From NCBI GenBank assembly GCA_947034885.2, contig OX344753.2, forward strand, positions 29,404,347 through 29,468,346: DNA of 64,000 nt. The letters are read 5' to 3'. The notes beneath the pieces were generated by a model. The model was not told the origin of the DNA. It searched no databases and worked only from the letters and a program-made list of their open reading frames with translations. Made by a program: the position numbers and the translations under genes. Each line of letters starts with the position of its first letter. Position 1 is the first letter of the stretch. The DNA comes from Thuidium tamariscinum. Taxonomy: Eukaryota > Streptophyta > Bryopsida > Hypnales > Thuidiaceae. This document shows positions 18,538 through 46,001 of this stretch, piece after piece.

Positions 18538-19669
18538 CACTACAAGGAATTGAGGTCCGAAATGACTGTCCTAAATGACTGTCCTAAATGACTGCAAAAC
18601 AGTCATTTCGGACCGATATGACAGGAAAATGACTCGAGGCCGCTGCAGTCATTCCGGACAAGTCATTTATTAAATGACTCCAGTTTTATTATCACCATCC
18701 AGTTAGGGGAAGGATGAAGACATCGATGATAGTATCTACGTGGCATGGGAGGGTCAGGGAAAATTTCCGGGTTAGGGCGGGCAGGTGACCATTTTGTCCT
18801 AAAATTTTGGAGGCTGAAACAAAAAACTCAGTCATTTATGCTGTCATTTTCTAGTCACAACTCACCCAATATTGAAGTCATTTTCCAGTCAACTTCGAGT
18901 CAAAAATGTGGTGACGTGGACGTTGTCATGAGATAATTATGGAGTCATTCTTCAGTCGTCCTCCTGTCTATGAAGTGCTGACGTGGACATTGAAGGCCGT
19001 CTTCAATCCCAGTCATTTTCAAGACATTTTCTAGTAGCGGAAAGGGGCTCATACTAAGTCATTTTCTAGTCATTTTGGAGTGAGAGATTGTGAGTAATGA
19101 CATTGTTGGCAGTGATGCATGTAGTCACTTCTGAGTGACTTCTCAGTCATAATTTTTACTACTGCTGTCATTTTTTAGTCATATGTACTGCTTGTCCAAT
19201 GGATGGGGGGGTTTTGCACAATGCATGAGGGTGTCCATAGAGTTATATGCCTTAACTTCTAAATGACTCCCTGGTGACTAGTGCAACGACTACATTGACT
19301 GTACAACGACAGGACTCCAAGGTGACTCGCATAGACAACAACACTCAAGCATTCAATAGCAGTATTTGCTAGTCAATGGATGCACTACTCTGCTATATCA
19401 CTGTAATAGGATTCAATGGCATAATCATGCATGTTATGCACACTACAAAAAACGGGAGGCATAGAAAACATGTATTCGGAAGTATTGAAGTACCCTGTGG
19501 TACTCATAGAATTCCAAAAATGCAAGGCCGCAGCACATGCATGCTTGCAGCCAATATTGCTACTCCAAAATACCATCTACAGTATTCTCAGTTTGTCACA
19601 GTCGTCAAGGCCTCTGAAGATCCAGAAATGTACTCCCCCTTATACAAATGCTTCGCCAAGAATGTGAAC

Positions 19670-22600
19670 TCAAGTACTTGCCTTCAGGTATTTCTGGTCC
19701 CACACTATACATGTCCCCTTTACATGTTCTACATGAGTCTGGCCGTCTGTGTCATCGGGGTACATAAGTGCCACATTTTCGTGCATAACATCCCGAATGT
19801 CCACTTTCAACCAAGTCTCTGGAATCTCTTTGAAGTGGAATTTGTGTTGGCCGGGAAATCCACTAATGGTTCCCACCGCCACTTTCTGCTTGATCGCACG
19901 CGGGTTCATGACAAACACTTCGTCGCCGAGCTTGAACTGCACAGAAGCCAAGAATTACAGAACCGATCATTAACATTTCAGGGTAATGGAGGCATTCAGC
20001 ACAAAGACTGAGCCAGCATTGGTTGACTGTGTGGCTCTCCTGTAACTTCTACATGACTTAATCTTGACTTACATGTGACTTCTACGTCACTAGGCAGTAA
20101 ATTGCGATTGTCATATGACAGCATGTGACTTCTACGCAACTTCGCTTAATGCTACCACAGAACCACTGCAGTACTTTCACTTGCATTCAATTCGCAGTAG
20201 AGTCAATGCACAGATGGAACCAAATTCATCCGCATAAGCTCAAGTAGTACCAAAGTCTACCTATAGAGCACATAGTTCTCTTCATTGAACGTCACCACAA
20301 CACGGCATACATATACTCATGCACAATGGACGTCTGGGAGGGCCTTCATGTTCAGAAAAAAAATTTACTATACCATGAGCTTGTAAGGCTTGCGCTTTAC
20401 ATGCTTGGCTGAAAGGACGCTTGGAGAAGAGTTAGGATCTCTGGATGTGAGTTCATAACTTACCTTCCCTGGCAACTTGAAGACTTGTCGTATTTTATAT
20501 ATACACATTTCTCCTAATACGTTTCATTTACAGAAGGCAGGGCTATACCCAAATCTTCTTCAAAACTCTCACTTAGGTTTTCTGGAGACTGCTATGACGC
20601 TAAGACAAAAACAGAAAATGTGGTTAGTTCGTATATGGATTCACCAAACACGTTGACAACTACAAATGTCTACATGTGTTGATGACAACCATTACTTAGA
20701 AGAGGGCTTCAGTCAATAGGACTTGTTTTTTAAACGGGAAGTTGCCTTCCTCTGAAGGCTGCCTATATTCTGCTCGACTACCTTACAATGCACATGTCAC
20801 TCATGCGTGACTTGTACAGTTGCGGACTTCCTATTTCTGACTTCACATAATCTACAAAATGACTTCAAGAACATTGGAAAATGACTACACAATAACCGAA
20901 GCATTACTTCTCACAATACAAAACCCACAAGCTGTTTTGGAGTTGAATTGAACACACCTTCTTCGTGGATGGACCGGAACCCTTTTTGTCCGCTGCCAAA
21001 GTTGCCTTGGTCTTTGGATCTCGCTTCTGCGCCTTCACCTACGTGCACAATTGCAAACGGTCAGATAGAAGTGAAAAAGGAAGGTGAGGGGACGCCATGA
21101 CATCTGCAATCCACTACTTGGACAGTCCCCTCACCTTCCACAATGTCGTAGAACTCATATGGTTTTCCAGTTCGTCGTCTCTATAGCATGTCTGCCATGG
21201 ATTCGTTGACAATTTTTGGATATTTGGATCGAAAGGCTGCCACATTTGGGCATTCATCCCAAGCCTCCAATACCGGCCACAAGTACCGTTTCAAGTACTC
21301 CTTGTCATCTGCCAATGCGCAAATCCACTTGACGTAGAAAGGAGGACTAATGATCACATTAGCATCTGGATTGGTGGCCACCTTGTTGTGCCCACTATCT
21401 ACTATTAAAGTGTTCTCTGCACTAAACGAGGGCCAGGCTGTATAGACGGCCGACAAATTCTTGGCAAGCTCACTACTTGACCCATCTTGCATTTCTTGCC
21501 ACTCACAATGTTTACCGGACCAAGTGAAGAGTGGGGTTGGATCGAAACCGTTCAAGCCACCAAGCATTGCTGGAACAACATCTTCCATATATGGCTTACT
21601 CTTGCTACCCCAAAAAGCAACATAAAATCTTTGGAAGCATTTGAATAGAAACGGTTTCAACCAAGGCCTCAGAACTACTCTCCTTAGCTCAGTTTTCATG
21701 CTCATTCTGATTTTTCTATTTGGATTTCCCTCTGCCAACATACTACAATCTAGAAGTGTACCATGGACATTAAAGATTACTAATTTTGAAGGTTTAGGTT
21801 TCTGAAATGGGGTCATGACCCGTGCTGCACCTGAAGGACTTACCTCCTTCGACGTATACTTAGGAACGCCGAATGGTGAATTTACCTTCATTGGTGACTT
21901 TGCTGCTTTCTTGAATTTCTTCTGTGGGACCTCTGCCGCGGCTTCTTCTTCGGCATTTAGTTTAGACCCTTCAAGGTTGACCTCCACTTTCTCCACGGCC
22001 TCATCTTCAGCGACTACTTCTTCTTCCTCTGCTGGGCTACCCGAGGTCAAGTCGTTCGTGGACGGTTTAGGGGTTGTGCCGTCTACAGGCTTCGCCAGGT
22101 CCTGTTTGCCGACATCCTCCGTTGCTTTTTTCTCCTTGGCAGCGTCATCCTCTGTTTTCTTCTCTGCTCGAGCAGTAGGACTGACTTCAACTGTCGTGTC
22201 CTCTTCATCGAGGTCCACAGTCACAGTAGATTTGACTTGTGGTGTTGGCGCAGAATTCTTAGCGCCGGATGGGGGAGGAGCAACCTCAAGCACTGACGAC
22301 TTCTCCACTTCAGTGATGGGCTTTGCGCTCACAACCTTCCATTGTTGCTTGACCAACTTCTTGTCCAATGTTGTCTTCTTTGTTAGCTCTAAATCGGAGG
22401 AATCCAAGTCAAGAGTTGCAGCTTTAGCGACGGTGTCGTCATCTGCCTTCTTCACGGGTGGCTTCGGGCTTTTACGCTTCTCTTTCGGGGCCCCACCGTC
22501 TTTCACCATGACGGCATCCATGCCTACTACTTTTTTTTTGGAATGAGGCAGTAACCCTACTGCGGGTCGCTCTTGAAGTCCGCGTATCTCCTCAATTTCT

Positions 22601-24876
22601 AGGGCCGACTGTGTCCTGGATGGGCTTGCAATCCTGACATCCTCCTCCTGTTGTTTCTTGCCTATGAACTCCTTGAACATGAATCGCAGTTCCTCTAATG
22701 CTGCGCCTTGGCTTGTACTGGTGGAGACCAATTTGTCAAACTTCACATCCACATCTCTCTTCCAAGCCTCCATCACTTGCCACCGGCTCGAATCCTCTCC
22801 CCCCACCATCTTTGAACCCGCAATCACAAGTGAACATATTATCAGTCATTTCTACGTTAGCTACAAGTCACCCCAACAACTTCACGACTAAAGTGTGACT
22901 TCTGTGTAACAGAGATGCGACTCTCTTGAACTAGAAGTCATACATCACAACTTAGGCCGACGCACATATGACTTGGCAGAACATGCAATGCGGTTTTAGG
23001 GTTCAATGTGACTTCAATAACCCTATAACTCAGTGCAACTTCAAATACTTGGGGTTGAAAAAAGAGACCTTCTCTTCCCTATGACCTTGGCTTCACTTAG
23101 TCCTGCATTATTTGAAGTTTCCAAAACCGTGAACTTCTAGCACCACAAAAGTCATTGAACTTAGAAGACTGAAATGAACTAAGGTGATACTGAAGACATT
23201 TGATTTCAAGGAAGGGTCTTACCGTGGTTGCAGATCCGATCCCATCTCTTGATCGCCTCCCCTTAGCAAAATCTGTGATGCCTGGGCTACTGTCCCGTCC
23301 TGCCTTCTATCAAGTACACAGAAGATAAACATTAATCACAAATGAATCCCTCATGACTACAATCTAGTGAATCTACCAATACCATGCTCCAATGAGGCAT
23401 AAACTGTAAACCATTACAAAACTGAATTCATTTGCATGAAACACTTACTACGAGTGCATCCTTCCCTGCCTTGCCTTTCCTCCCCACGAGGTCGTAATTC
23501 TTCACGCTCCGACGTGCTGCGGCCATCTTCTGTGCCTTCTCCATTTGGGCTGGAGTATTCCAATACTCTATGAGTTGGTTCCATTGCTTCGGATCCACGC
23601 GGAGAGGAGCCTTCACTGTCCCCTTCTCAACCATCTTCAAGTATCGCGTTTTTAGCTGAGATCGCTTGGACTTCATATACCTGGTCACTATCACTCGAAA
23701 TGCAGTCATGCTCAACGGGGTGCCCACATACTCGAACTCTGCATCAAGGGCATCTCGCAGTTTCTTCACTCTCTAAGGCGACTGCTCCTTCCAGTCCACG
23801 ATGCTCATGTCTAGAGTCTTTGGGACTAAGTCCCTCAGGGCTTCGTCCCATGCATTCTTTCCCTCACAGTTGCCGTCCACTTCCCCGCTAGCCGACACTA
23901 TCACTCGGTTAGGCTTCATGCCAGAATAAGTCTGCTCTTGACTGCCCTGATCATATGCAGCTTTCCTCTTCCGCCGTGACAAACGCTCTTCAGTATCATG
24001 GGACATGTCTGGTGGAAAGCCCTCCTGCATCGCTGATGTGTGCCCCGGCCATGTCCCTGGCAATGCGGGTGGGGGACCGCCGCACCAAGGAGCACTTGGT
24101 GGTGGTGCCTGGCTTGGCATGTAGTGCCCAGGGACCCAATTCCAAGGCGGGTGACCATAAGAATTGCTCTCCACGAGCGCTTTCGTTGGCTGAAGAAAAG
24201 GGTCGTCCACTTTACGAGTCCTCAATGGTGACGGAGGTACCTGCCTTATCTGCTTCGCCCTGGGATCGAGTAGTCGTTCCTCCTCTACTTCATTGAACTC
24301 ATCATCGGATGAATCCACCAGTGGGCACTCAACATCTACAAAAAAAATAAACAACAAGCGATGAGGTCTAGGCAAGCCAATTGCAGTGCTGCAGTGTGCC
24401 CACTCCCCATCTGTGAAACTGTGATGTGTGAGTCCCCTACATTGTTGACAACTGAATGCATAAGTTGGTACTCACAGACGCTGAGCACAACACCGCTAAG
24501 TCATGACTAACCTCAATTGTAGAATTCAGTCGATGTTCTACCCTGGACAACCTATCGAACCCTAAAACGAACCAGACTACAAGGAGCGTAATGCCAATGT
24601 ACCTGCAGCAGCTGCCTCCGAGTTGGATTCCCGCTCAACAAGTTTACAAGCAATTGCGAGATTCATCATACCTTTCGCGATTTCTTCCTCATTGGACTCC
24701 GTCGCCTCCGACGACGAACCATGCTCGCTACTCATGGCGGGATTTGTTGTAGCTCCTCGCCGGCGCTGCCTCGCACGCTTCTTCCATGCCTCGGGTCGTG
24801 GATCTCCGCTTCGCCTCAAACTCCGGCGCAAGGGACCCGATTCATGCGTCTTCTTCACTAACAGCTTCTACTTCCG
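19670..24876 (-). pseudogene. TNPA-like CACTA gene containing an FCP1/NIF-like HAD domain
   Basis: Minus-strand exons inferred from GT-AG borders: 24876-24603, 24335-about 23450, 23306-23223, 22809-21135, 21038-20958, small exons near 20570-20340, and about 19937-19670. The second exon carries the plant En/Spm transposase (PF03004-like) signature: KMVEKGTVKAPLRVDPKQWN, then LIEYWN and a Lys/Arg-rich tail near 23470-23640. The 22809-21135 exon has a coiled start, a Lys/Glu/Pro-rich linker, and from about 21790 an FCP1/NIF-like HAD domain (LVIFNVHGTLLDC, later TLIVDSGHNKVATNP). The nucleophile motif DxDxT reads N-V-H-G-T, so phosphatase activity is unlikely. The last exon (KLGDEVFVMNPRAIK to GTCIVWDQKYL) resembles the C-terminal domain of CACTA TNPA proteins. 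In-frame stops at 24868-24870, 23773-23775 and 21181-21183 suggest a pseudogene. Copia A lies upstream, in the 5' part of the gene. Confidence 0.65.
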
Positions 24877-25011: not shown

Positions 25012-25267
25012 TGTTGAAGATCATGTACATATTAGTGTAGACTATGTACATTCAGCCCTAGGAGTAGCATTAGACTCTTAGTTAGCCTTAGAGTCCCTTG
25101 GGTATTGCTTGTAGTCAAAGGCAGCCCATGGTGTTTGGTTATCCCACATGGTTTGTGGATAACTAGGGAAAGGCTTCTCCCTTATGTTCAGCCCACTCAT
25201 GGGCCATGGTATCTTCCTACCATCTAAGTAAAGCCTTTCATCCATTCATAACATTGGAATCTCAATA
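25012..25267 (+). repeat. 5' LTR of copia A
   Basis: 256 bp, TGTTG...CAATA. Contains two ATGTACAT palindromes exactly 21 bp apart (25023-25030 and 25044-25051) and a potential hairpin with arms GTTATCC (25138-25144) and GGATAAC (25157-25163). Confidence 0.95.
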
Positions 25268-25281
25268 GGTTATGGGCCCAC
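25268..25281 (+). promoter_or_regulatory. Primer-binding site: half-tRNA initiator Met
   Basis: GGTTATGGGCCCAC directly after the LTR is the reverse complement of the anticodon arm of plant initiator tRNA-Met (GTGGGCCCATAACC), 14 of 14 bases, rather than of a tRNA 3' end. Priming by a 5' half of this tRNA is established for Drosophila copia. The same site follows the LTR in copies B (33637-33650), E (49363-49376) and G (58229-58242, minus); C has one substitution (42838-42851) and H has one at the end. Confidence 0.8.
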
Positions 25282-26233
25282 GCACTTGGAGTTGCGTTTG
25301 AGGGAGGAATTCAAAGCATTTGGAGGAGATCTTGGAGCTTGGAGGAGTTATCAGCCCTTTGTCACTTTTCACCTACAAACCATATGGTGTGAGTCATTTT
25401 TCAAATATCAAAAACTTTGGAGTGCATTTTAAAAAAAAAGGAATTTTTTTAGGAGCTATTGTTGGCTGGTTTGTGAGGTTTTGAGTCCATTTTGGGTGAG
25501 AGTTTGCTTATGGTAGTAATCAGACCTAGTTAGGGCTGGTTGGAAGCTCCTAGTTTGAGTTTGTGCTTAGAAGTGTACATTGGGAGCCCATTGAGGCTGA
25601 TTGTGCATTTGAGTGCATTGTGGATTGTGATGGTGCCAATTGCAATCTAGTGAGAGTCCTTTGGAGGCCTTGGAAGCATATTTGAGTTGCTTGAGGTGTT
25701 TGCCATGCAAAGAGGGCTGATTAGAGCCCTTGTGAGTGAGTGAGGCAATTCATGGATTTCTTGATCCTTAGAGGACTGATTTCTGCCCCTTGTGAGCCAT
25801 TGAGGGCCAATTAGGGTGCTTTGGTGGATTGGTGATCCAATTAGGGCTATTGGAGGCCATTGTTGTCCTTGAGGTGCTTATTGTGAGTAGTAGCATCCAT
25901 TTAGGGCTGATTGGAAGGCTTGAGCGCCTTGTTGTGTGGAGTACCCTATTTGTGAGGAGCATTGTGAGATTGCTTGCTGAATTGAAGGAGCACTAGCCCA
26001 TGACATTCATGTGGTGAATTTGAGCTTGATTAGGGTCTGATTTGGTGTGGAGTAGAGGTGAGGCACTTATGTGGAGTGTTTTGGTTGTTTCCTTGGATTG
26101 GGAGGAGCTTGGAAGGTCCTTGGAAGGGCTGATTGTTGCCATTTCAGCCCAATTGGCTTCCAAGTGAGTGTTTGGAGGCTGAATTCAGTTGGAGACACTT
26201 GGGGTGCTGCCAACAAGTGGGAGGTGCTTCACC
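25282..26233 (+). other. Leader of copia A
   Basis: Untranslated leader of about 950 bp between primer site and start codon. It is rich in GGCTGATT-like motifs and holds about one and a half units of the 60-bp repeat that is expanded in other copies (near 25697-25800). Open frames in it are not conserved. Confidence 0.7.
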
Positions 26234-29200
26234 ATGGCAACAAGTGGAGGAGAGGGCGTGCGCATCATTGACAAGTTCAATGGGGAGAACTTTGGCATGT
26301 GGAAGTTCAAGATGGAGATGATTCTTGCGGAGAAGGACTTGTGGGATGTGGTGGATGGGAGTGAAGAGCCTCCAAGTGAGGATGCTGATCCAAAGACCAA
26401 GAAGGCATTTGAGAGGAAGGAGAAGAAGGCCTTTGCCCTCATTGCCATCAACCTTGCGGACCGGCAGATTGCACACATCCGCCATTGCAAGGGACCAGCC
26501 CATGCGTGGACCACGCTTTGCAACATCCATGAGACCAAGAGCCTCTCCAACATCCTCTTCCTTCGGCGCAAGTTCTTCACTAGCAAGATGCAAGAGGAGG
26601 ACGACATGTTGGACCATGTCAACAAGATCAAGGCTCTTGCTGATGAGTTGGCTTGTTTGGAGGCGCCCGTGACGGAGGGAGATGTGGTGATGACATTGTT
26701 GGAGAGCTTGCCACCATCCTATGAGTTCCTCATCACCGCCTTGGAGACAAGGGCCACCAAGGATCTGACCTTGGAGTTTGTGACAGCCCGCTTGATGCAT
26801 GAGGTGACAAAGCGCAAGGAGAATGAGCCCCAAGGGGAGGGATCAGCCCTTGTGTCAAGGCATGGCAAGGGAGGCACCACCAAGGCGTTCAAGGAGACAA
26901 GGACATGCTTCAAGTGTGGCAAATCAGGCCACATTGCCAAGCATTGCAAGACCTGCCAAGCCAAAGACAAGGAGAGTGCACACCAAGCTTCCAAAGAGGA
27001 GGAGGAGGAGGATTTCGCCTTTGCCACTCATGGAGGAGGGGAGAAGGCCAACATGTTCACTTGGATTGTGGATTCAGGTGCTACCCAACACATGACCAGC
27101 CATCGAGATGCCTTCCACACCTATCAGCCCATTTCGGGGAAGAAGATTTACTTGGGAGACAATGGCATGGTGGAGGCTCTTGGAAAGGGGGAGATCCATG
27201 TGGAGGTGCAAGTGAAGGGGCTGACCAAGAGGATCCAGATCCAAGAAGTGCTCCATGTACCCAAGTTGCATACCAACTTGCTTTCGGTGAGCAAGTTGTC
27301 TTTGGGAGGTTTGAAAGTGCAATTCAACATGGTGGGATGTGTTGTGAGGTCCCCAAGTGGAGTCTTGATTGCATCAGCCCCTCGTGAGGGCAACTTGTAC
27401 ATCTTCCATTTCACCAAGGTGAATAGCACTTCCTTGGCTTGTGTGGCCCAAGGATCAGCTCATGAGGACCTTGTGGAGCTTTGGCATAGGAGGCTTGGGC
27501 ACTTGAATGTGAAGAGCATGAAGAGCCTCCAACACATTGTGAAGGGGCTGAATCTCTCTTCTTGCAAGCATGATTGGAGTTCTATGGTGTGCAAGGGGTG
27601 CATTGAGGGCAAGCAAGCAAGGCAGCCCTTCCCCAAGGATGGGGCAACAAGGGCCAGCAAGCCATTGGAGCTTGTGCATTCGGATGTGTGCGGGCCAATG
27701 AAGACCTCAACCATAGGAGGAGCAAGGTATTTTGTGACCTTCATTGATGATTTCTCTCGCAAGGTGTGGGTGTATATGCTGAAGTGCAAGAGTGAGGTGT
27801 TTGGGCGCTTTGAGACTTGGAAGGCCCTTGTGGAGGCCCAATCTGATTGCAAGGTGAAGGTGCTGCGGTCGGATAATGGAGGGGAGTATGTGTCCAAGGC
27901 CTTTGAGGAGTACTTGAAGGCCCATGGCATTGAGCACCACACATCAGCACCTTACACTCCTCAACAAAACGGTGTAGCGGAGCGTGCCAATCGGACCATT
28001 GTGGAGATGGCAAGGGCCATGATTCATGGCCAAGGGCTGAAGTATGAGCTTTGGGGGGAGGCGGTGTCTACAACGGTTTATACAAGGAACCGGTGCCCCA
28101 CACAAGCCTTGATTGGGAAGACACCCCAAGAAGCTTGGAGTGGGATCAAACCTCATGTGTCTCACATGCGCACCTTTGGGTGCATTGCTTATTATGCCTT
28201 GGTGCCTAGTGCCAAGAGGACCAAGTTGGATGTCAAGGGCATCAAGTGTCTTTTCCTTGGTTATTGTGAGGGAACCAAGGCTTATAGGCTAATGTGTGTG
28301 GAGACCAAGAAGATCATCAAGAGTAGAGATGTGACCTTCTTGGAGGATGGAGGTGCTGATCCAAAGCTCTTGGAGATGAGCCCAAGTGGGAGTAATGGAG
28401 GACCAGCCCAAAAGGTGGGCACAACTCCAAGAGTGCACCTAGAAGATGAAGGAGATGAAGATGAAGAAGATGAGGACTTGGTGGAGCCCAAGAAGAAGGT
28501 GGCCACACCTCAAGGGAAGAGGCCATCAGCCCCTTCTCCAAGATCTTCACCAAGGGAGAAGGAGCATGATCAGCCCTTGGAAGAGCAAGATCAGCCATTG
28601 GAGGAGCAAGAGGAGCCCTTGGAGGAGCAAGAGGAGCCACGTTATCCAACAAGGACCCGGAGGCCACTTCGAGATTGGTGGCTGAATCACATTCTTCCCC
28701 CACAACATGAAGAACAAGCCAATGTGGCTTTCCTTGGAGATCCATCCACACTTGGAGAGGTGTTGTGTTGTGAGGATGCAAGCAAGTGGGAGTTGGCAAT
28801 GCAAGAGGAGTACAAGGCCCTCATTACCAAAGGGACATGGGAGCTTGCTGCCCTTCCTTCCAAGAGATCAAGTGTGGGCTGTAAGTGGGTTTTCTCCACC
28901 AAAAGGGATGCTTTGGGTCATGTTGTGAGGTACAAGGCAAGGCTGGTTGCTAGGGGGTTTTCCCAAGTGGAGGGGGTGGATTTTAATGAGACTTTTGTTC
29001 CCGTTGCCAAGTTTAGCACCATCCGGTGTGTTGTGATTCTTGGGGCAGCCATGGACTTGGAGATGCACCAAATGGATGTGAAGACGGCTTTTCTCAACCC
29101 CAAGCTCAAGGAGGTCATCTACATGGATCAGCCCCAAGGCTTTGTGCAAGAAGGCCAAGAGCATCTCAAGTGCAAGTTGAAGAAGGCCCTTCCCGGGTTG

Positions 29201-30358
29201 AAGCAATCGGGGAGAGCATGGTATCAAGATATTGATGCCATGTTTGTGAGGAAGGGCTTCCTAAGAAGCCATGCTGATCACTCATTGTACACCATGCAAA
29301 GTTGTGAGTTTTTGGTGATTGTGATCTTATATGTGGATGATCTGATCCTTCTTGCAAGTAGCATGACCAAGATGCTTGAAGTGAAGGCCATGCTCAAGGA
29401 GGAGTATGAGATGACTGATCTTGGAGAGCTGAAGTATTGCCTTGGAGTGGAGTTCAAGAGGGATAGGGCTGCCCGCACCATCACCATGAGCCAACGCAAG
29501 TACCTTGAAGAAATTCTCAAGCGCTTCAAGATGGAGGAGTGCAAAGCCATAGGTACACCACTTGAGACTCGTGTGAAGTTGCCCAAGCTCACGGATGCTG
29601 AATTTGGAGAGGTGAGGGCTGAAATGCAAGGTGTGCCTTACAAGGCAGCGGTGGGTTGCTTGATGTATGCCATGGTAGCCACAAGGCCTGATTTGGCCTT
29701 TCCGGTGAGTGTTGTGAGTCAACACATGTCCAAGTATGGCCCAAAGCATTGGGCTGCGGTGAAGAGGGTGATGAGGTACCTTCAAGGCACACTTGGGCTG
29801 GAGTTGCAACTTGGAGGTGCCCATGTGACTTTGCATGGCTATTGTGATGCGGATTGGGCGGGTGATGAGGCGGATAGGAGATCCACCACCGGCTACGTGT
29901 TTAAGCTTGGATTGGGTGCCATTACTTGGAATTCCAAGAGGCAGCCCACCATAGCTCTTTCTACAACGGAGGCTGAATACATGGCCATGAGCCAATGCAC
30001 CAAGGAGGCCATTTGGTTGCGGCAACTCTTGGCTGATGTTGGCCTTGTCCAAGAGGGGAGCACACCCATCTGGTGTGACAACCAAGGGGCCATTGCTTTG
30101 GCCAAAAATCCCACCCACCACTCTCGGACGAAGCACATTGATGTGCAACACCATTTCATTCGTGAACGAGTGGAGGTTGAGGTGATTGAGCTCAAGTATG
30201 TGCCTACCCAAGCTATGGTTGCTGATGTGCTGACCAAGGCTCTTGGGAAGCCACAACACCACAACTTGATTGAGAAGATGGGCCTTCGAGCCTTTGACCA
30301 CTCTCAAAGTGGGAGTGTTGAAGATCATGTACATATTTGTGTAGACTATGTACATTGA
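26234..30358 (+). CDS. Copia A gag-pol polyprotein
   Basis: A single frame of 1374 residues. The ATG at 26234 has a good context (CACCATGGC) and is preferred over the in-frame ATG at 26189. Domain order is that of Ty1/copia. Gag (UBN2 type) covers about residues 10-200, then a CCHC knuckle (CFKCGKSGHIAKHC, near 225), protease (VDSGAT, near 279), and the pre-integrase zinc domain (LWHRRLGH to CKGC, near 415-455). The integrase core keeps its acidic triad in SDVCG (near 483), RSDNGGEY (near 546) and NGVAERANR (near 579). Reverse transcriptase has YVDD (near 1033), and RNase H has GYCDADWAGD (near 1202) and a HHSRTKHIDVQHHF end motif. The stop codon lies 40 bp inside the 3' LTR. No frameshift or premature stop is present, so the element could be functional. 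Confidence 0.95.
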   Translation: MATSGGEGVRIIDKFNGENFGMWKFKMEMILAEKDLWDVVDGSEEPPSEDADPKTKKAFERKEKKAFALIAINLADRQIAHIRHCKGPAHAWTTLCNIHETKSLSNILFLRRKFFTSKMQEEDDMLDHVNKIKALADELACLEAPVTEGDVVMTLLESLPPSYEFLITALETRATKDLTLEFVTARLMHEVTKRKENEPQGEGSALVSRHGKGGTTKAFKETRTCFKCGKSGHIAKHCKTCQAKDKESAHQASKEEEEEDFAFATHGGGEKANMFTWIVDSGATQHMTSHRDAFHTYQPISGKKIYLGDNGMVEALGKGEIHVEVQVKGLTKRIQIQEVLHVPKLHTNLLSVSKLSLGGLKVQFNMVGCVVRSPSGVLIASAPREGNLYIFHFTKVNSTSLACVAQGSAHEDLVELWHRRLGHLNVKSMKSLQHIVKGLNLSSCKHDWSSMVCKGCIEGKQARQPFPKDGATRASKPLELVHSDVCGPMKTSTIGGARYFVTFIDDFSRKVWVYMLKCKSEVFGRFETWKALVEAQSDCKVKVLRSDNGGEYVSKAFEEYLKAHGIEHHTSAPYTPQQNGVAERANRTIVEMARAMIHGQGLKYELWGEAVSTTVYTRNRCPTQALIGKTPQEAWSGIKPHVSHMRTFGCIAYYALVPSAKRTKLDVKGIKCLFLGYCEGTKAYRLMCVETKKIIKSRDVTFLEDGGADPKLLEMSPSGSNGGPAQKVGTTPRVHLEDEGDEDEEDEDLVEPKKKVATPQGKRPSAPSPRSSPREKEHDQPLEEQDQPLEEQEEPLEEQEEPRYPTRTRRPLRDWWLNHILPPQHEEQANVAFLGDPSTLGEVLCCEDASKWELAMQEEYKALITKGTWELAALPSKRSSVGCKWVFSTKRDALGHVVRYKARLVARGFSQVEGVDFNETFVPVAKFSTIRCVVILGAAMDLEMHQMDVKTAFLNPKLKEVIYMDQPQGFVQEGQEHLKCKLKKALPGLKQSGRAWYQDIDAMFVRKGFLRSHADHSLYTMQSCEFLVIVILYVDDLILLASSMTKMLEVKAMLKEEYEMTDLGELKYCLGVEFKRDRAARTITMSQRKYLEEILKRFKMEECKAIGTPLETRVKLPKLTDAEFGEVRAEMQGVPYKAAVGCLMYAMVATRPDLAFPVSVVSQHMSKYGPKHWAAVKRVMRYLQGTLGLELQLGGAHVTLHGYCDADWAGDEADRRSTTGYVFKLGLGAITWNSKRQPTIALSTTEAEYMAMSQCTKEAIWLRQLLADVGLVQEGSTPIWCDNQGAIALAKNPTHHSRTKHIDVQHHFIRERVEVEVIELKYVPTQAMVADVLTKALGKPQHHNLIEKMGLRAFDHSQSGSVEDHVHICVDYVH
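30305..30315 (+). promoter_or_regulatory. Polypurine tract of copia A
   Basis: CAAAGTGGGAG ends directly at the 3' LTR, the standard position for plus-strand priming. The same sequence precedes the 3' LTR in copies B, D (minus) and F. Confidence 0.85.
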
Positions 30359-30571
30359 GCCCTAGGAGTAGCATTAGACTCTTAGTTAGCCTTAGAGTCC
30401 CTTGGGTATTGCTTGTAGTCAAAGGCAGCCCATGGTGTTTGGTTATCCCACATGGTTTGTGGGTAACTAGGGAAAGGCTTCTCCCTTATGTTCAGCCCAT
30501 TCTTGGGCCATGGTATCTTCCTACCATCTAAGTAAAGCCTTTCATCCATTCATAACATTGTAATCTCAATA
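30316..30571 (+). repeat. 3' LTR of copia A
   Basis: 256 bp, same ends as the 5' LTR with six substitutions. The first 43 bp also encode the C-terminus and stop of the polyprotein. Confidence 0.95.
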
Positions 30572-30576
30572 GTGAG

Positions 30577-32481
30577 CTCCTAGGCAAAAATGAGACAATG
30601 TCTAGGGTTTCGTGAAAAAACAAGGGGTACACTGCTTGTACAGGCAAGGCGCAAAAGGCTTCCACATGGACAATGCAATAATTACAGTCGCCTTTTGGAG
30701 TTTTCGTCATGCGCAACTGCGACTCTACTGGTATACAACTAAAAAATGACTAGACAACAGTTGCATACTAGTAGGAAGACATTTAACGTGACTCAAAGGT
30801 CACTGGAGGTCAACTACAAAATACCTTTCCAATGGTATATTACACGACCCAAAATTCCAAAAATTGAAGTGGGAAATTGCAAAAAACCGTGACTGTCTAC
30901 TACGCGCGCCTGCACAAAAACGTGGAAAAAAGACCCACAGTCACATTGCGACTACTGGTCTTTTTTACCAGATTTTGTTATAGTGTTTACTTGTACATGT
31001 TTTCCATGAGTCTCATACTGTCCACAGAACTTGATTTTTCAAATTGGGGCTTACAATGCATGCTTGAAGTCTGTCCCTACGTTAATTACTTCCAGAAGTC
31101 ATTTTTCAGTCATAGTGTAGTAAGAAAATCAGCATGACTAAGATGACACTTCTAGCAGTCACTCTGAAGTTGAATTATGTAGAAAATCAGGCCGAGGACA
31201 GAAAACCACGTCAAACAGAAGTCGCGACGGGTTAGTGGTCACGCGAACTTCGATTCGTTTCAGCACGCAATAGGGAGAGAGATCAATGACCGACAAAATA
31301 CAGTTCATGACTAACGCTATGTACAGCTATGCATACATTAATCGCACTCCTATTACCCTCGCTAATAGTCTCATTTGATTGATTGCAGATATTGTAAGTT
31401 GAGTTCACAGGAAGCACTTCTGCAAAGTCACGTTACGGGCCTTTCTCCCATGCAACGAAATAGTACGTACAGAGGTATGCTCATTATGTTTACTTCTACC
31501 ATTCTATACATGGTGATGAAAAGGACATTGTATGCCTAATTCCTAAATGTATGAGCCACTTCCATGGTACACATTTACTTAAAGAGAATGATCCATTTCC
31601 GTTACTTGTTGTACATGTGGATGTCTAAGAGTTTCGTTTTTTGCTTCTCTATGAGTACGAACTACTGATTTCATAGTGAGTTTTCTAAGTATCCACTTCT
31701 ATTCCCCATTTTTTTGGGCCTCCTCTTAGAATATTAGCACTTTCTACCAGAGGCGGTGTCATTTTGTTCTAAAACACAGGACAGGCTTTTGGTGATTGAT
31801 GTGCAGACCTAATTCAGAAACAAGAGTGCAGAATACGTTTCTCCCAAGGGTGAAATCGTTGCATGTTGCAAGGTACCCAGTCCAGTTCATAGCCTACACC
31901 ATCTATACACTTGAATGAGTAGATATTACTTGCATATGACAGGCTTCCAGTCATTACGAAGTCACTAATGACTTCATAATGACTTGAAGCGTGTCATATG
32001 CAAGTCATGATAGTCTTAACAGGGAAACTGCAATTCTATTCCCCATTTTTTTTGGCCTCTTCTTAGAATATTAGCATTTTGTATTACAAAAATTGTAAGG
32101 AAAAAATTCGATTCAATAACACAAGACATGTTGCCAGGTATATAGTCCGTTTAATTGCCTACACCATCTGTACTGGTGGAATGAGTAGATATTACTTACA
32201 CATGACAGGCTTCCAGTCATTACAAAGTCACTAATGACTTCGTAATGACTTGAAGCCTGTCATATGCAAGTCATGATAGTCTTAACAGGGAAATTGCAAT
32301 TCTATTCCCCATTTTTTTGGCCTCGTCTTACAGTATTAGCACTAAGAAATTTGGTTCATTAACACAAGACATGTTGCCAGGTATATATTACGTTTAATTG
32401 CTTACACAGAATCTACACGCTTAGGTGTGCCATCTACAGCCAAGTGCCCCACCCAGAACGTCTTTTCTATACTAGTTTGCA
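30577..32481. other. CACTA terminal and subterminal sequence
   Basis: No gene seen. 30577-30985 is the 5' end of the TNPA-like gene region (homologous on the opposite strand to 60740-61020) and ends in TTGTTATAGTG, a candidate CACTA terminus. 30986-32481 is rich in AGTCATT/AATGACT motifs and holds the palindromic tandem units described separately. Confidence 0.55.
31690..32345. repeat. Tandem units with long near-perfect palindromes
   Basis: A block starting at TATTCCCCATTTTTTTGG recurs three times (near 31699, 32037 and 32303). Between the recurrences lie two long palindromes: arms 31928-31964 and 31969-32005, and arms 32194-32230 and 32235-32271. Each has 37-bp arms around the loop CTAA, with few mismatches. 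The arms contain AGTCATTAC/GTAATGACT, the CACTA subterminal motif of this region. Confidence 0.8.
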
Positions 32482-32907
32482 ATGCCAAAGCGGAGAATTG
32501 TAAAAGCTGCCCCACTGTTCCGTCGTCAGAGACGTAGATTGCCTAGCCCAGATGAGGATGTGGACATCACAGAGCGCAAGTTTTCCTCACGTGTGTCCAT
32601 TTCAAAGGCTACACTTCCACATGTGGTCTTCAATAGAACTGTAGCATCAGACTCCAAAGATAGTCATACAAGCCCAATGGTCACATGTTCCTTTGAACAA
32701 GGCCTAATAGAAGACAGTACATCTCAGACAAAGAGAGAGTTAGACCGTCGCTTCCATTTTTGGTTAGGGCTGGCACTAGGTCATACCGTGGAGGTAGAAG
32801 GAGAAAATGTAGACATTAGTCCGCAGGCCTTCATTGAAAGAGCTATTGTACTCCTGTCTACTTCTATTGGGAGTGTGTCTTCTTCTAAAAGCAAGGAAGA
32901 ACAGTAG
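32482..32907 (+). CDS. Small unknown protein within CACTA sequence
   Basis: A 141-residue open frame with a basic N-terminus (MPKRRIVKAAPLFRRQRRR), which could be a nuclear localisation signal, an acidic-polar middle, and a more hydrophobic C-terminal third (FHFWLGLALGHTVEV, then FIERAIVLLSTSIG). No family was recognised. It lies between CACTA subterminal repeats and upstream of the tnp2 pseudogene on the same strand, so it may be an accessory gene or a single exon of a longer CACTA gene. Open length alone is modest evidence. Confidence 0.4.
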   Translation: MPKRRIVKAAPLFRRQRRRLPSPDEDVDITERKFSSRVSISKATLPHVVFNRTVASDSKDSHTSPMVTCSFEQGLIEDSTSQTKRELDRRFHFWLGLALGHTVEVEGENVDISPQAFIERAIVLLSTSIGSVSSSKSKEEQ

Positions 32908-33375: not shown

Positions 33376-34034
33376 GAAGTTGTTGAAGATCATGTACATA
33401 TTAGTGTAGACCATGTACAAACAGCCCTAGGTGTAGCATTAGACACTAGGTTAGTCTTAGAGTCCATTGGGTATTGCTCGTAGTCAAAGGCAGCCCATGA
33501 AAGGTAGTTATCCCACATGGTTTGTGGATAACTAGGGAAAGGCTTCTAGCATAAGATCAGCCCACTCATGGGTCTTTGTATCTTCCTACCATCTAAGTAA
33601 AGCCTTTCATCCATCAATACCTTTGTAATCTCAATAGGTTATGGGCCCACGCACTTGGAGTTGCGCTTGAGGGTGAAATTCAAATCATTTGGAGGAGATC
33701 TTGGAGCTTGGAGGAGCAATCAGCCTTTTGTGTCTTTTTCACCTACAAACAATATGGTGTGAGTATTCTTTGGAAAAACACACTTTGAGTGCATTTTTTT
33801 AAAAAGGAAGAGGAAAGTTTTGTTGCTTTCTCATTGGCTGGTTTGTGACGTTTTGAGTACATTTTGGTGGAGTGGTTGCTAATGGTAGTAATCAGACCTA
33901 GTTAGGGCTGGTTGCATGCTCCTAGTTTGAGTTTGCTTTTAGAAGTGTGCATTGAGAGTGCTTTGAGGCTGATTGTGCACTTGGGTGCATTGTTGAGTAA
34001 GATTGTGAGCCTTGGAAGCATGTTTGGGATGCTT

Positions 34035-34455
34035 GAGGCGAATTTGTGGACTTGGTCAATTTAAGAGGGCTGATTAGTGCCCTTGTGAGTGAGTGAGGCG
34101 AATTAGTGGATTTTTGTGAACCCTAGAGGGCTGACTTGTGCCCTTGTGTGTGAGAGAGGAGAATTAGTGGATTTTGCAAATCCTAGAGGGCTGATTTGAG
34201 CCCTTGTGTGTGAGAGAGGCGAATTAGTGGAATTTGTGAACCCAAGAGGGCTGAATTGTGCCCTTGTGAGTGAGAGAGGTGAATTAGTGGGTTTTGTGAA
34301 CCCAAGAGGGCTGAATTGTGTCCTTGTGAGTGAGAGAGGTGAATTAGTGGGTTTTGTGAACCCAAGAGGGCTGAATTGTGCCCTTGTGAGTGAGAGAGGT
34401 GAATTAGTGAGTTTTGTGAACCCAAGAGGGCTGAATTGTGCCCTTGTGAGCCTTG
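34035..34455 (+). repeat. 60-bp tandem repeat in leader of copia B
   Basis: About seven units of 60 bp, the last four nearly identical. A unit core is GAATTAGTGGGTTTTGTGAA followed by CCCAAGAGGGCTGAATTGTG. The array lies between the primer site and the first gag codon. Because 60 is a multiple of 3, several frames stay open without being genes. Confidence 0.92.
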
Positions 34456-34987
34456 TGGAGCCATTGAGAGCAAAGTAGGATTCTTTGGTGGCTTGGTGAT
34501 CCAACTAGGGTTGTTGGAGACCATTGTTGTCCTTGAGGTGCTGATTGTGAGTAGGAGCTTCCATCTAGGGCTAATTCGAAGCCTAGAGCTCCTTGGAGTG
34601 TGGAGTAACCTCTTTGGGAGGAGGACTTGCTGAATTGAAGTAGCACTAGCTTATGATGACCATGTGTTGGACTTGAGCTTGATTAGGGTCTGAATTGGTG
34701 ATTGAGAGGAGGTGATGCACATGTGAGGAGTGTTTGGCCGTCCTTGGTGTTCAAAAGATCTTTGGAGGTCCTTGTGAGGGCTGATTGGTGCCATTTCAGC
34801 CCTATTGGCTGCCAAGGGAATGTTTGGTCGTTCTTGGAGCTTGGAGGATCTTGGGAGGTCCTTGTGAGGGCTGAATTGTGCCATTTCAGCCCCATTGGTT
34901 GCCAAGGGAGTGTTTGGAGGCTGAATTGAGTTTGTGAACTCTTGAAGACACATTGGGTGCTGCCAACAAGTGGGAGGTGCTTCACCA

Positions 34988-37190
34988 ATGAAGGAGCTGA
35001 CCATGGAGTTTGTGACGGCCCAATTGATGCAAGAGGTGACCAAGCACAAGGAGAATGAGTCCCAAGGGGAGGGATCAGCCCTATTCTCAAGACATGGGAG
35101 AGGAGGCAACACCAAGGCGTTCAAGGAGACAAGGACGTGCTTCAAGTGTGGCAAACCAAGCCTCCAAAGAGGAGGAGGAGATTGCCTTTGCCACCCATGG
35201 AGGAGGGGAGAAGGCCAACATGTTTACTTGGATTGTGGACTCGGGAGCCACCCAACATATGACCAGCCATCGGGATGCCTTCCACACCTATCAGCCCATT
35301 TCGGGGAAGAAGATTTATTTGGGAGACAATGGCATGGTGGAGGTCCTTGGCAAGGGGGAGATCCTTGTGGAGGTGCAAGTGAAGGGGCTGACCAAGAGGA
35401 TCCAGATCCAAGAGGCCCTCCATGTCCCCAAGTTGCATGCCAACTTTCTTTCCGTGAGTAGATTGTCTTTGGGAGGTTTGAAGGTACATTTCAACATGGT
35501 GGGGTGTGTTGTGAGGGCACCAAGTGGAGTTTTGATTGCATCAGCCCCTCGTGAAGGCCACTTGTACCGCCTCCACTTCACCAAGGTGAATGGTACTTCT
35601 TCGGCTTGTGTTGGCCAAGAATCAGCCCAAGGATCAGCTCATGGAGACCTTGTGGAGCTTTGGCATAGGAGGCTTGGGCACTTGAATGTGAAGAGCATGA
35701 GGAGCCTCCAACACATTGTGAAGGGGCTGAACCTCTCTTCTTGCAAGCATGATTGGAGTTCTATGGTGTGCAAGGGGTGCATTGAGGACAAGCAAGCAAG
35801 GCAGCCCTTCCCCAGGGATGGGCCATCCCGAGCCACCAAGCCATTGGAGCTTGTACATTCAGATGTGTGCGGGCCAATGAAGACCACATCCATTGGAGGA
35901 GCAAGGTATTTTGTGACCTTCATTGATGATTTCTCTCGCAAGGTGTGGGTGTATATGCTGAAGTGCAAGAGTGAGGTGTTTGGGCGTTTTGAGACTTGGA
36001 AGGCCCTTGTGGAGGCCCAATCTAATTGCAAGGTGAAGGTGCTGCGGTCGGATAATGGAGGGGAGTATGTGTCCAAGGCCTTTGAGGAGTACTTGAAGGC
36101 CCATGGCATTGAGCACCACACATCAGCACCTTACACTCCTCAACAAAACGGTGTAGCGGAGCGTGCGAATCGCACCATTGTGGAGATGGCAAGGTCTATG
36201 ATTCATGGCCAAGGGCTGAAGTATGAGCTTTGGGGGGAGGCGGTGTCTACAGCGGTTTATACAAGGAACCGGTGCCCCACCCAAGCCTTGACAAGCATGA
36301 CACCCCAAGAAGCTTGGAGTGGGATTAGGCCCCATGTGTCTCACATGCGGATTTTTGGGTGCATGGCCTATGCCTTGGTCCCAAGTGCCAAGAGGACCAA
36401 GTTGGATGCCAAGGGCATCAAGTGCCTTTTCCTTGGTTATTGTGAGGGAACCAAGGCTTATAGGCTGATGTGTGTGGAGAGCAAGGCCATCATCAAGAGT
36501 AGAGATGTGACCTTCTTGGAGGATGGAGGTGCTGATCCCAAGCTCTTGGAGATGAGCCCAAGTGGGAGTAATGGAGGACCAGCCCATGTGGTGGGCACAA
36601 CTCCAAGAGTGCACATGGAAGATGATGAAGATGAAGAGCAAGGAGGGGAAGATGAGGACTTGGTGGAGCCCAAGAAGAAGGTGACTACTCCCCAAGTGAA
36701 GAGATCAGCTGCTCCTTCTCCAAGCACTTCACCAAGGGAGCAAGAGCATGATCAGCCCTTGGAGGAGCAAGAGGAGCCACGTTATCCAACAAGGACTCGT
36801 AGGCCTCTAGGAGATTGGTGGCTAAATCACATTCTTCCCCCACAACGTGAAGAAGAAGCCAACCTAGCTTGCTTTGAAGATGCAACCACACTTGGAGAAG
36901 TGTTGGGTTGTGAAGATGCAAGCAAGTGGGAGTTGGCTATGCAAACGGAGTGCAAAGCCCAAGGTACACCACTTAACACTCATGAGGAGTTGTCCAAGCT
37001 CATAGATGACGAATTGGAGGAGGCAAGGGCTGAAATGCAAGGTGTGCCTTATAAGGCAGCGGTGAGTTCTTTGAAGCATGTCATGGAAGCCACAAGGGCT
37101 GATTTGGCATTCTCGGTGAGTGTTGTATGTGAATCCATGTCTAAGTATGGCCCAAAGTGTTGGGCAGCGGTCAAGAGAGTGTTGAGATAG
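34988..37190 (+). pseudogene. Copia B gag remnant and protease-integrase frame
   Basis: A gag remnant starts at MKELTMEFVTAQL (34988) and shifts out of frame where the zinc knuckle is cut (CFKCGKP is followed by sequence from 19 or so codons downstream). The protease-integrase part is open in another frame from 35055 to 37190: VDSGAT, the LWHRRLGH zinc domain, SDVCG, RSDNGGEY and NGVAERANR are all intact. After DASKWELAMQ the frame jumps to TECKAQGTPL, missing the RT region with YVDD, and stops at KRVLR just before RNase H. A protease plus integrase product could be made only if translation starts inside or shifts frame. Confidence 0.85.
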
Positions 37191-37652
37191 TTTTATGGCG
37201 TACTTGGTATGCCACCAACCCAAACTTGATTGCAATGATAATTCATTGCACCTTTGACCACTCTCAAAGTGGGAGTGTTGAAGATCTTGTACATATTAGT
37301 ATAGACCATGTACATACAGCCCTAGGTGTAGCATTAGACACTAGGTTAGTCTTAGAGTCCATTGGGTATTGCTCGTAGTCAAAGGCAGCCCATGAAAGGT
37401 AGTTATCCCACATGGTTTGTGGATAACTAGGGAAAGGCTTCTAGCATAAGATCAGCCCACTCATGGGTCTTTGTATCTTCCTACCATCTAAGTAAAGCCT
37501 TTCATCCATCAATACCTTTGTAATCTCAATAGAAGTCAAATTCTTCTCGTAGCATGCTAATTTCCTGCTTTGCGTATTGTCCCTTGCGCAAGTGGTTTGT
37601 GTTAAGTACTTCTGGCTCTAAAGCCCTCTGATTTTTTCAATTCTGCAAAGAC

Positions 37653-40600
37653 ATGATACCTACACGGCTTCCATTAAGTGATAGTAGGAGACAAAGATTA
37701 CGAGACGGCCGTTTATGGATTCGTGAGTTGCAGAGGGCAATTGAATACAATGTCAAGCAATTGCATTGCCCATGCACAAAATGTCGAGGCCGGAAGGTCC
37801 TATTTCTTCGCAATGTACGAGAGCACCTCATTCGTTATGGCAGAGATTCAACTTGTCGGACATGGAGAGGTCCAGGCATCTGAGACTCCTTAGATGAAGA
37901 ATGGGAACAACAATTTTGGGAACCTTCGACAGAGGAACCTCAGAATTTAGATGCTAGAGTCGACACTCGCGGGATGGTCGACCAAGCTACCCTTAACCCG
38001 CACGATGGGACTTTTCCAAGAGATGATCGACAAGAGGAAGCGAGAGAACCACAGGATTCAGAAAGTCGTTCAGCGGAGAGATTGGCTGAGGAAGTGAGGG
38101 ATGCTTTCGCCACTGCAGACTCCATCCATGAAGACTACATGGAAGGCTTACGAGGGGACGTAGCAAATAGCCAGGAATGTCGTGATGAAGACCAGGTTGG
38201 ACAACAGCCCACGGATGGAGTCCACGAGAATTCAAACTTTGACGGCAGAGTACTTGAAGAGTCCCTGGAGCAGTTGTATGATGGGGAAAAGTCGAGCAAG
38301 CTTGCAGCCACTATACTCCTAATGAACCTATGCACCGTACATGGCGTGAGCAACCACTGCGCCAACGAAATCTTTAGCATTTTGCATGCCCATCTATTGC
38401 CAGAGAACAACACTCTACCGAAGACCTATCATGCAGCAAGTACGTTGACAAAGAAATTGGGGTTGACGTATAACACGATCCATGCATGCAAGCGTGGGTG
38501 TGTGCTATTCCGTGGCCCTCATGAGAATGCCATCCGTTGTCCTAAGTGCGGCGGACGCAGGTACAGAGACGAGGAGAAGCGCGCCTTCCCAGTGAAAGTG
38601 CTCCGGCACTTCCCTATCATTCCCCACCTACAAAGAATGTTCATGAGCCCCAAGATATCGCAACTCATGGTCTGGCATGCAGAGAACCGGAGTGACCAAG
38701 AAAGAGGTGATGGCCTTGTGAGGCATCCGTGTGACTCAAAAGCTTCGAAGCACTTTGAAGAGAATGTGGATCCATCGTTTGGAAATGATCCACGAAATGT
38801 TCATTTCGCGTTGGCAGCTGATGGAGTGAACCCTTTCAAGCAAAACCGCTCTTCATGGTCCACATGGCCGGTCTTGTTATTGAATTACAACCTGCCGCCG
38901 TGGTTGACAACAAAAAAGTTTTTCTTGTTATTGGCCTGTTATTTGGGAGAGAATCCGTCACATCTAAAGTATTTGATGTATACTTAGAGCCACTTGTATA
39001 TGAATTGCTCGAGTTATGGTCTAGGGTTCCGGCATATGACGTATCCAAAGATGCAGGTAGAAGGGCTTTCTAATTACGTGCGATGTTATTGTGGACTATC
39101 CATGACTTTCCGGGTTATGGCACTGTTGGCGGATTTTTCCATCAGGGGTACGCAGCATGCCCATGGTGTGGCAAAAATCTTGGCGCTGAACATTCTACTA
39201 AGCTTGGTAAGCAGACTTATGGTGGAACACGTCGTTGGCTCCCCGAAGATCATCCGTACCGATCAGAAGAAATGAAGGACCATTTTGATGGACGTATGGA
39301 AGACCGCCCCAAACCACATGCAGTGACAGTGGAGGAACAGATCCAGCACGCATTGGAGTGTGAAGCTTGGAGAGCTACTGGAAACAGAGATGGTGCTGCT
39401 GGAGACCCATCCAAATTATATGGTTTGAAGCGGCTGAGCATTCTTTTCAGATTACCATATTCGAAGGTGAGTTTTAGAAGTCATAGTTTTGGTGGAAATG
39501 ACTGGAAGGGAACTTGCATGCAACTACTACAGTATGTAGAAGTCGCGAATGAGTCATTCATCAGTATCAAAATATAGGTACTTCTGTTTTATGACTTGAT
39601 TACGACTAGTTTATGACCTTCTCACAAGTGGAAACTAATACCGCATGTCCTATCTGTATTGTTAGTATCTCCTGGTTCGGTACACGCTTGATGTTATGCA
39701 CTGCGAACTGAACTTGGCGAAGAACTTCTTGAAAACAATTACTGGGAAGAAAGACACCGTGAAGGTCCGCAGAGACTTGTAAAGGAGAAATATCAGGAAG
39801 CACTTGTGGCTAACTCCGCACCCACGCAAGGCAGGGAAGATGGTGAAGCCCACGGCATCATATGTTATGACGGACTTGGAGTTTGAGAAGTTTGCAAAGT
39901 GCATAGAGTCATTGAAGACACCCAGCGGGTATTCATCTGACCTTGGGAAGTGTATTCGCAAGAAAAACTTTGGGGGATTGAAGTCTCACGATTACCATGT
40001 TCTAATGCAACAAGTGTTGCCTCTAGCTCTCCGTGGACTCCTACCACCTGGTCCTCGCATGGCCGTCATGAGGATGTGCAAAATATTTAGGCGTCTTTGC
40101 ACAAGGGTCTACAACCTTGTAGACTTCCCTTCACTAGAAGATGACGTGGCAGAGAGTATGGCATTGTTGGAAATCGAATTTCCACCATCGTTTTTTGACA
40201 TCATGACGCATCTCCCCTACCATCTTGTGAAGGAGTTGGACCTGTGTGGACCGGTTAGTGCACGGTGGATGTACCCGGTGGAACGTTACATGAAGGTTTT
40301 GAAGAACCATGTCCGTAATCTAGCACGACCAGAGGCTTGCATGGCAGAGGGTTATTTGAAGGACGAGTGCATCGGATTCATCACGGAGTACCTCCAGAAA
40401 TTTGAGCCCACCCAGAGATGTGTTTGGGACGAAGATGAAGAGTACGGAGACGCCGAAGAGGTTCTACAAGGAGCTGGAAAGGCATATGTCATGAGCACGG
40501 AGATGAGAGACATGGCCCACTAGTATGTGTTGGAAAACGTCTTAATTTTGCAGGATTTTGTTGCGTAAGTTGAACCTGTAACCCTTCTCTATGAAAGTAT

Positions 40601-41622
40601 CATAGAGTATTATGCAGAGCCTCATGAATTGGTGCTGTTCATGCATCCATAAGTGAATCTGGCCTTGTAGTAGTCCAGTGGACGTTAGCATGTCATTCAT
40701 GAGTCGTATCGGTCGTGAATGTCATTTCAGTGACTGAGTTGTGACTTGCAGAAGTCACGTTGAAGTCAGAAAATGAAGCGGAAGTCATATTTTAATGTGG
40801 ACGGTCCAAACTACTCTACTGAGGTTGTAATCATTTAGTGTCCTTCTCCCATCTTGTGCTCATTATAGAACTTGGTTATGAGTGCAGGCGGTGGAAAACT
40901 GAATCTGAAGAAAACACTAGTACTCCACCATTGGCAGAATGGATGCAAACCACTATGCAAGATTTGGACTGCAATTTGGAAAACGAAGAGGACATGGACC
41001 GCTTTCTACTTAGTATAAAACCAGCACAAAGAGCCACCCGGTATGCAAGGGTCATTGCATTCAGAAACCACTTTCGCGTGGAAGATTCGAGCACCGTGCA
41101 TATGGTCAGCTACAATAGCGGAGTAGCTTCGGTTTTTCAGCATTCAACTCAGAATTCCGAAGAAGCTGCAGTGAATTATGTGGGAGTATTGAAGGATGTT
41201 TTCGAGTTGGACTATGGATTGGGGCTTTGAGCACACCCATCATTTTATTGCGTTGTGAGTGGCTTAAGACCCATGAAATTCGAGGTAACTCGACATATGT
41301 CAGGGACGATTCCGGATTCCTTACAGTGAACTTCCGCGACAAACTACCTCGCTTAGCAGATCCCTTTATATTTCCAAGGCAGGCCACCCAAGTCTTCTTC
41401 TCTGACATTGTGGAAAGACCTGGCTGGAAAGTTGTCTTACGCAAAGAAGCAAGAGCGAGACGGGAAGTCCTGGATACTACGGATGCATTCATTTCCACTA
41501 CGATGGAGAGCATAGGTCTCAGAGCTCCCCAGCAATTGCCAAATCCACCGCAGACAGTGAATCTAGTGGGGGCTATAGAATTATCAGAGGAGGACAACCT
41601 ACTAGCTCAAGGAGGTTACTAG
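37653..41622 (+). pseudogene. CACTA transposase gene (tnp2, DUF4218, DUF4216), broken
   Basis: The domains follow the order of plant En/Spm TNPD proteins. A transposase-associated N-terminal domain (CPCTKCRGRKV) starts at 37653. The tnp2 domain covers about 38290-39730 (GVSNHCANEIFSILHAHLLP, LPPWL, DVYLEPLVYELLELW, LLWTIHDFPGYG, YTLDVMHCELN). DUF4218 follows at about 39804-40400 (KSHDYHVLMQQVLPLALRGL, RWMYPVERYMKVLKNHVRN), then DUF4216 at about 41000-41500 (YVGVLKDVFELDYG, LRCEWLK). An intron probably lies at 39469-39671 (GTGAGT after LFRLPYSK). Disabling changes are an in-frame TGA at 37881, a frameshift near 38910-38925 at an A6/T5 run, TAA at 39071, TAA at 39780 and a one-base frameshift at 41226. 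It would have cut the CACTA ends when intact. Confidence 0.88.
40524..40837. other. Spacer or intron in the tnp2 region
   Basis: No coding potential between the DUF4218 and DUF4216 parts. It holds several TGACTT/AAGTCA motifs (40730-40790) and is probably a large intron or intergenic DNA of the CACTA element. Confidence 0.45.
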
Positions 41623-45660: not shown

Positions 45661-46001
45661 TATTGAGATTACAAAGGTATTGATGGATGAAAGGCTTTAC
45701 TTAGATGGTAGGAAGATACAAAGACCCATGAGTGGGCTGATCTTATGCTAGAAGCCTTTCCCTAGTTATCCACAAACCATGTGGGATAACTACCTTTCAT
45801 GGGCTGCCTTTGACTACGAGCAATACCCAATGGACTCTAAGACTAACCTAGTGTCTAATGCTACACCTAGGGCTGTATGTACATGGTCTATACTAATATG
45901 TACAAGATCTTCAACACTCCCACTTTGAGAGTGGTCAAAGGTGCAATGAATTATCATTGCAATCAAGTTTGGGTTGGTGGCATACCAAGTACGCCATAAA
46001 A

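Follow-up and report, generated by a model that had tools for sequence, protein, structure and literature searches.

A NIF/FCP1-type phosphatase domain without its catalytic aspartates in a candidate accessory gene of a CACTA element from Thuidium tamariscinum

We analysed a stretch of 64,000 nucleotides from Thuidium tamariscinum (assembly GCA_947034885.2, contig OX344753.2, positions 29,404,347 to 29,468,346; hereafter the window), which carries a CACTA transposable element. A minus-strand exon in this element encodes, in one frame, a leader, a charged linker and a phosphatase-type haloacid dehalogenase (HAD) domain with the corresponding fold, in which both aspartates of the catalytic motif have been replaced, and the replacements are fixed in a large family of relatives. 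With moderate confidence we propose that this is an accessory (TNPA/ORF2-type) gene of a CACTA element with an anciently captured, dead NIF/FCP1-type phosphatase domain, which would act as a binding module.

The phosphatase-type domain and its active site

The window copy of the exon contains the following features:

21135..22809, minus strand: HAD exon, with coiled leader, charged linker and HAD domain (open reading frame (ORF), Pfam, splice sites, relatives)
21244..21786, minus strand: NIF/FCP1-type HAD domain (PF03031; profile match and fold)
21757..21771, minus strand: NVHGT where the catalytic DxDxT is expected (sequence and family tally)
21181..21183, minus strand: in-frame stop TAG closing the HAD exon frame shortly past the HAD domain, before the exon donor (ORF, sequence)

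The original prediction placed a HAD domain in this exon and noted that both catalytic Asp had given way to N and H, and both claims were borne out. In Pfam, residues 354-534 of the 554-residue ORF at 21181-22845 (minus strand) match PF03031 (NIF, NLI interacting factor-like phosphatase) at E 4.1e-11 and 43.2 bits against a cut-off of 21.8, and the ORF translation reads LVIFNVHGTLLDC at the motif and likewise contains TLIVDSGHNKVATNP. Profile score and fold place the domain in the NIF/FCP1 HAD fold family; the DxDxT motif of the FCP1/SCP phosphatases, which are enzymes, is absent, and their motif III Lys and motif IV Asp are present. The NCBIfam model HAD_IIID1 matches 14 of the 15 rows of the family alignment described below, and the window scores 21.5 with it, far under the cut-off of 192.

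Relatives were gathered and compared as single-frame protein predictions. The HAD part as query returned 20 proteins and a 15-row alignment as query returned 87, of which 80 were new, giving 100 in total, and the domain is thus no oddity of the window alone. On the 15-row profile the active site is covered by 90 rows, namely the window and 89 of the 100 hits, the remaining 11 falling short. At the nucleophile position 88 of these rows have N (one T, one Y), and at the acid/base position 87 have H (two Q, one Y); D was found at neither position in any of the 90. Motif II is G in 79/88 rows, motif III is K in 69/73 and motif IV is D in 66/69. In the 57 rows that reach 150 residues or more, pairwise identity has a median of 48%, 35 of the 54 inner branches of the tree are well supported, and N359 and H361 rank 12th and 18th in conservation among 198 columns with a mean of 61%.

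Judged by these sequences, the family is old and diversified, and because N and H are highly conserved in so diverse a family, the replaced active site is an ancient feature that was kept, and not decay of the window copy. In view of the tally and the conservation ranks we reject chance or decay as the source of the two replacements. Moreover, as so many and such varied relatives share one and the same replacement, the domain was probably retained for gripping something and not for dephosphorylation. The earlier suggestion of a binding rather than catalytic role, or decay, therefore stands in its first half only. Capture from a host gene, also proposed there, is plausible in view of P0100 (E 6.6e-4, 23% identity; outside the active-site tally), which is host-like and by eye keeps the Asp (KLLIFDLNKVL), but a one-off fusion does not agree with a diversified family. 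In viral_contigs and genome_contigs, 95 and 100 stretches matched the search pattern and none was confirmed as a family member.

The CACTA element and the neighbouring exons

The following features support a CACTA element whose TNPA-side gene contains the HAD exon:

18538..18551, plus strand: CACTA left end (CACTACAAGGAATT), within a Copia leader (sequence and uninterrupted leader copies)
18554..18660, no strand assigned: subterminal direct and inverted repeats of the AATGACTGTCC type (repeat analysis)
37653..41622, plus strand: TNPD-type transposase gene with the domains Transpos_assoc, Transposase_21, DUF4218 and DUF4216, running divergently from the HAD gene (Pfam)
25012..30571, plus strand: nested Copia element 1, target duplication GTGAG on both sides (sequence comparison)
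33381..37531, plus strand: nested Copia element 2, target duplication GAAGT on both sides (sequence comparison)

The terminus at 18538 starts with CACTA and cuts a Copia leader that runs intact at three other sites in the window, and subterminal repeats were found at this left end alone. The tnp2-type transposase (PF02992) is matched by two ORFs, at E 9e-25 and 3e-19; its gene is damaged, with a stop before 37884 and the Transposase_21 match divided between two frames. A second partial CACTA copy holds counterparts of 30816-30573 at 60779-61021 (71%) and of 24928-24542 at 61097-61486 (82%), and because these counterparts of the two flanks of Copia element 1 are only 76 bases apart, both sides of this Copia belong to one CACTA element. 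With the Copias subtracted, ∼14 kb of this element remain before further Copia sequence begins near 42.6 kb, and its two genes are arranged divergently. Rightward of 42.6 kb lies rearranged Copia sequence, and no right end (TAGTG with a 3-bp target duplication) was located within the window.

Around the HAD exon, the minus strand contains these further pieces:

24603..24735, minus strand: predicted first coding exon (ATG and GT donor; second copy, 81% identical, at 61097-61486)
23449..24335, minus strand: Transposase_24-type exon, broken by TAG at 23773-23775 (sub-threshold PF03004; 33 homologous proteins)
23223..23306, minus strand: predicted small exon between the Transposase_24-type and HAD exons (splice sites)
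20958..21038, minus strand: predicted small exon beyond the HAD exon (splice sites)
19670..19936, minus strand: putative C-terminal exon of the accessory (TNPA/ORF2-type) gene (ORF, acceptor AG)

The original prediction joined such pieces into one exon series with a PF03004-like domain at its head and a TNPA-type domain at its C-terminus. The splice sites that it gave (23223, 22809, 21135 and 21038) have GT/AG ends in the sequence, but the frame is not open: because of the TAGs at 21181-21183 and 23773-23775 the window copy is a pseudogene, and relatives' frames continue beyond the position equivalent to the former. A PF03004 match is present, but at E 2.3e-4 and 21.8 bits it stays under the cut-off of 28.7, and it spans 41 of the 138 profile positions. 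The C-terminal piece (19670-19936) has its ORF and acceptor AG but no match in Pfam, and its TNPA-type label is a resemblance that we assume. With PF03004 sub-threshold, only its position and a weak resemblance make the window gene TNPA-type. A PDB search with a model of the Transposase_24-type exon (mean pLDDT 71) gave no match at E up to 0.001. A single spliced protein would follow from the predicted series.

A leader like that of the window, then a linker and then HAD in a single frame, is found in 9 of the first 20 hits (with HAD truncated in two such relatives, P0019 and P0020), and because of this common frame the three parts form one unit. Linkage to the Transposase_24-type exon was assessed by comparing the size of the longest contig between the 100 HAD relatives and the 33 homologous proteins that a search with that exon returned. 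Among these 100 x 33 comparisons two pairs were of equal size, P0003/P0101 at 45926 and P0020/P0129 at 2276, where a rough density estimate gives 0.003 expected coincidences at ≥10 kb and 0.24 below. The pair at 2276 was set aside, being weak evidence alone with 0.24 expected by chance. P0003 has the top identity to the window HAD (65%) and P0101 is the top match to the Transposase_24-type exon; because both are at 45926, this pair supports the presence of both exons on a single contig in another genome, and it is silent on splicing and order.

Several other features of the window were recorded. An ORF of 143 residues without a Pfam match (32476-32907, plus strand) lies between the two divergent genes of the CACTA element, which also contains two long hairpins (31925-32008 and 32191-32274; 40-nt arms, 88-90% complementary, 4-nt loops) in a direct repeat of ∼300 nt. 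Copia-related sequence holds 60-bp minisatellites at 34035-34450, 48742-49106 and 57400-57786, and inverted Copia copies of 3.4 kb (34113-37531 and 45661-49079) are 99% complementary, reflecting either recent insertions or an assembly effect. The ORFs 52992-54353 (minus strand) and 62346-63353 (plus strand), 41% identical over 161 residues and with no Pfam match above cut-off, represent an undescribed repeat-type protein family. A host gene at 2191-4785 (minus strand) with RNB (E 9e-104) and OB_Dis3 domains encodes a DIS3-like exonuclease.

A palindrome over the splice donor

The donor following the HAD exon is covered by a palindrome with arms GGAAGGTGAGGGGAC and GTCCCCTCACCTTCC:

21079..21139, minus strand: perfect palindrome whose 15-bp arms, 21125-21139 and 21079-21093, are separated by 31 nt, covering donor 21134-21133 (inverted-repeat search)

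In 300 simulated sequences (first-order Markov) no 15-bp inverted repeat with comparable spacing was free of mismatches, whereas the real stretch has two that are, the present one and another at the CACTA end. RNA folding of the region gave z -2.24, with 4 of 200 shuffles equally stable, and an Rfam search returned nothing at gathering scores. Relatives' protein predictions often extend past the HAD exon end into the palindrome region. GEG, one reading of GGTGAGGG, is present in 36 of the 60 relatives with a recognisable HAD end, and 17 of the 26 tails with at least 14 residues past GEG show PSP, PLT or [ASPT]PH, three readings of CCCCTCACC, 11-12 residues past it (shuffled tails, 2000 trials: mean 1.6, maximum 7); this pattern was picked after the tails had been inspected, and 9 of the 26 lack it. 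Seven more tails of at least 50 residues have no GEG, and the right-arm reading is seen by eye in four of them (P0010, P0035, P0036 and P0045). Because three reading frames share one spacing, the comparison argues for conservation as nucleotides rather than as protein.

Its position on the HAD splice donor suggests regulated splicing, a control that would be built into the element; a DNA-binding site is the alternative. A bolder reading, which we think quite unlikely, combines a host phosphatase turned substrate-trap reader of a phosphorylated nuclear protein with a conserved RNA hairpin switch hiding the HAD donor, so that the spliced form would carry HAD and the C-terminal part and the unspliced form would end soon past HAD. 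If this were true, one gene would yield two regulators, for example a promoter and a restrainer of transposition or silencing.

Competing explanations and known systems

In our proposal, the accessory gene of a CACTA element would have captured a NIF/FCP1-type phosphatase domain long ago, N and H would have taken the place of the nucleophile and acid/base Asp ahead of the spread of the family, and both new residues would have been held by selection ever since. The HAD domain would most likely serve as a binding module, docking either a nuclear protein of the host or a partner that is phosphorylated, and for the Transposase_24-type and C-terminal parts we assume, by analogy with TNPA, a role in binding transposon DNA. 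Several points weigh against it. The window copy is broken and its PF03004 match is under the cut-off (21.8 against 28.7 bits); a PF03004 match at E up to 0.05 is seen in only 9 of the 33 homologous exons, the best of them at 3e-4, and P0101, which shares the contig size of 45926 with P0003, has no match. Moreover, the exon joins are predicted from splice-site sequence, partner binding by HAD is a presumed function, and no host donor gene was found among the 100 hits, the sole host-like one, P0100, being weak at E 6.6e-4.

The predicted joins also leave room for the HAD exon as a separate gene of the element, unspliced to the Transposase_24-type exons. Relatives appear as single-exon ORFs, and the PF03004 match becomes no longer when the predicted exons are concatenated, but the exons share strand and order with GT/AG sites, P0003 and P0101 have a common contig size, and the leader begins directly at an acceptor AG, and we consider a separate gene unlikely. 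A natural substrate trap, in which the Asn version holds a phosphorylated host protein uncut in the old active site, would agree with the retained Lys and motif IV Asp and with Asn at the same column in the Scp1 chains 2ghq and 4ygy. The conserved Lys and Asp indeed speak for a phosphate-binding pocket, which there may be, but His at the second Asp and Gly for the motif II Ser/Thr in 79 of 88 rows may spoil it and the alignment with 2ghq is weak (E 0.022), which makes such a trap improbable. HAD phosphatases use the first Asp as nucleophile and require it, and with Asn there in 88 of 90 rows, an enzyme still active by unusual chemistry is very improbable in spite of the strongly conserved His, Lys and motif IV Asp. 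Plain decay, or a functionless passenger sequence, would account for the stops in the window copy but hardly for the 12th and 18th ranks of N and H in a family of 48% median identity, and we give it very little credence.

CACTA elements vary in their second protein, whose role has been worked out in few families. With the CACTA (En/Spm) elements that encode TNPD/ORF1 (Transposase_21) and TNPA/ORF2 (Transposase_24), the element described here shares the CACTA end, the subterminal repeats, the tnp2 transposase with DUF4218 and DUF4216, and a Transposase_24-type second gene; it differs in having HAD in this second gene, which is divergent from the transposase gene, in its sub-threshold PF03004, and in a right end not found in the window. 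The second CACTA reading frame is already known to accept foreign domains, such as Peptidase_C48, and HAD is not named among them in the accessible part of the source (PMC8978399). Our searches of the open-licence literature on CACTA together with FCP1, NLI interacting factor, haloacid dehalogenase or CTD phosphatase brought up no such protein, in line with the original statement that no described CACTA protein with this domain was known; the part available of one paper that has both CACTA and haloacid dehalogenase merely concerns a gene serving as insertion target (PMC5552171).

The NIF/FCP1/SCP phosphatases and UBLCP1 share the fold, the overall domain, the motif III Lys and the motif IV Asp with the window family, which differs from them in the replacement of both DxDxT Asp. 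The Scp1 chains 2ghq and 4ygy, which we take to be laboratory trapping mutants, share Asn at the nucleophile column but have the second Asp intact. Tim50 differs in being a mitochondrial import receptor without transposon parts. A fixed dead active site in a captured enzyme fold, kept in a deep family, would provide a testable handle on what CACTA second proteins bind in the host nucleus. It would also add to the examples of phosphatase folds taken over for binding, in this case by a selfish element.
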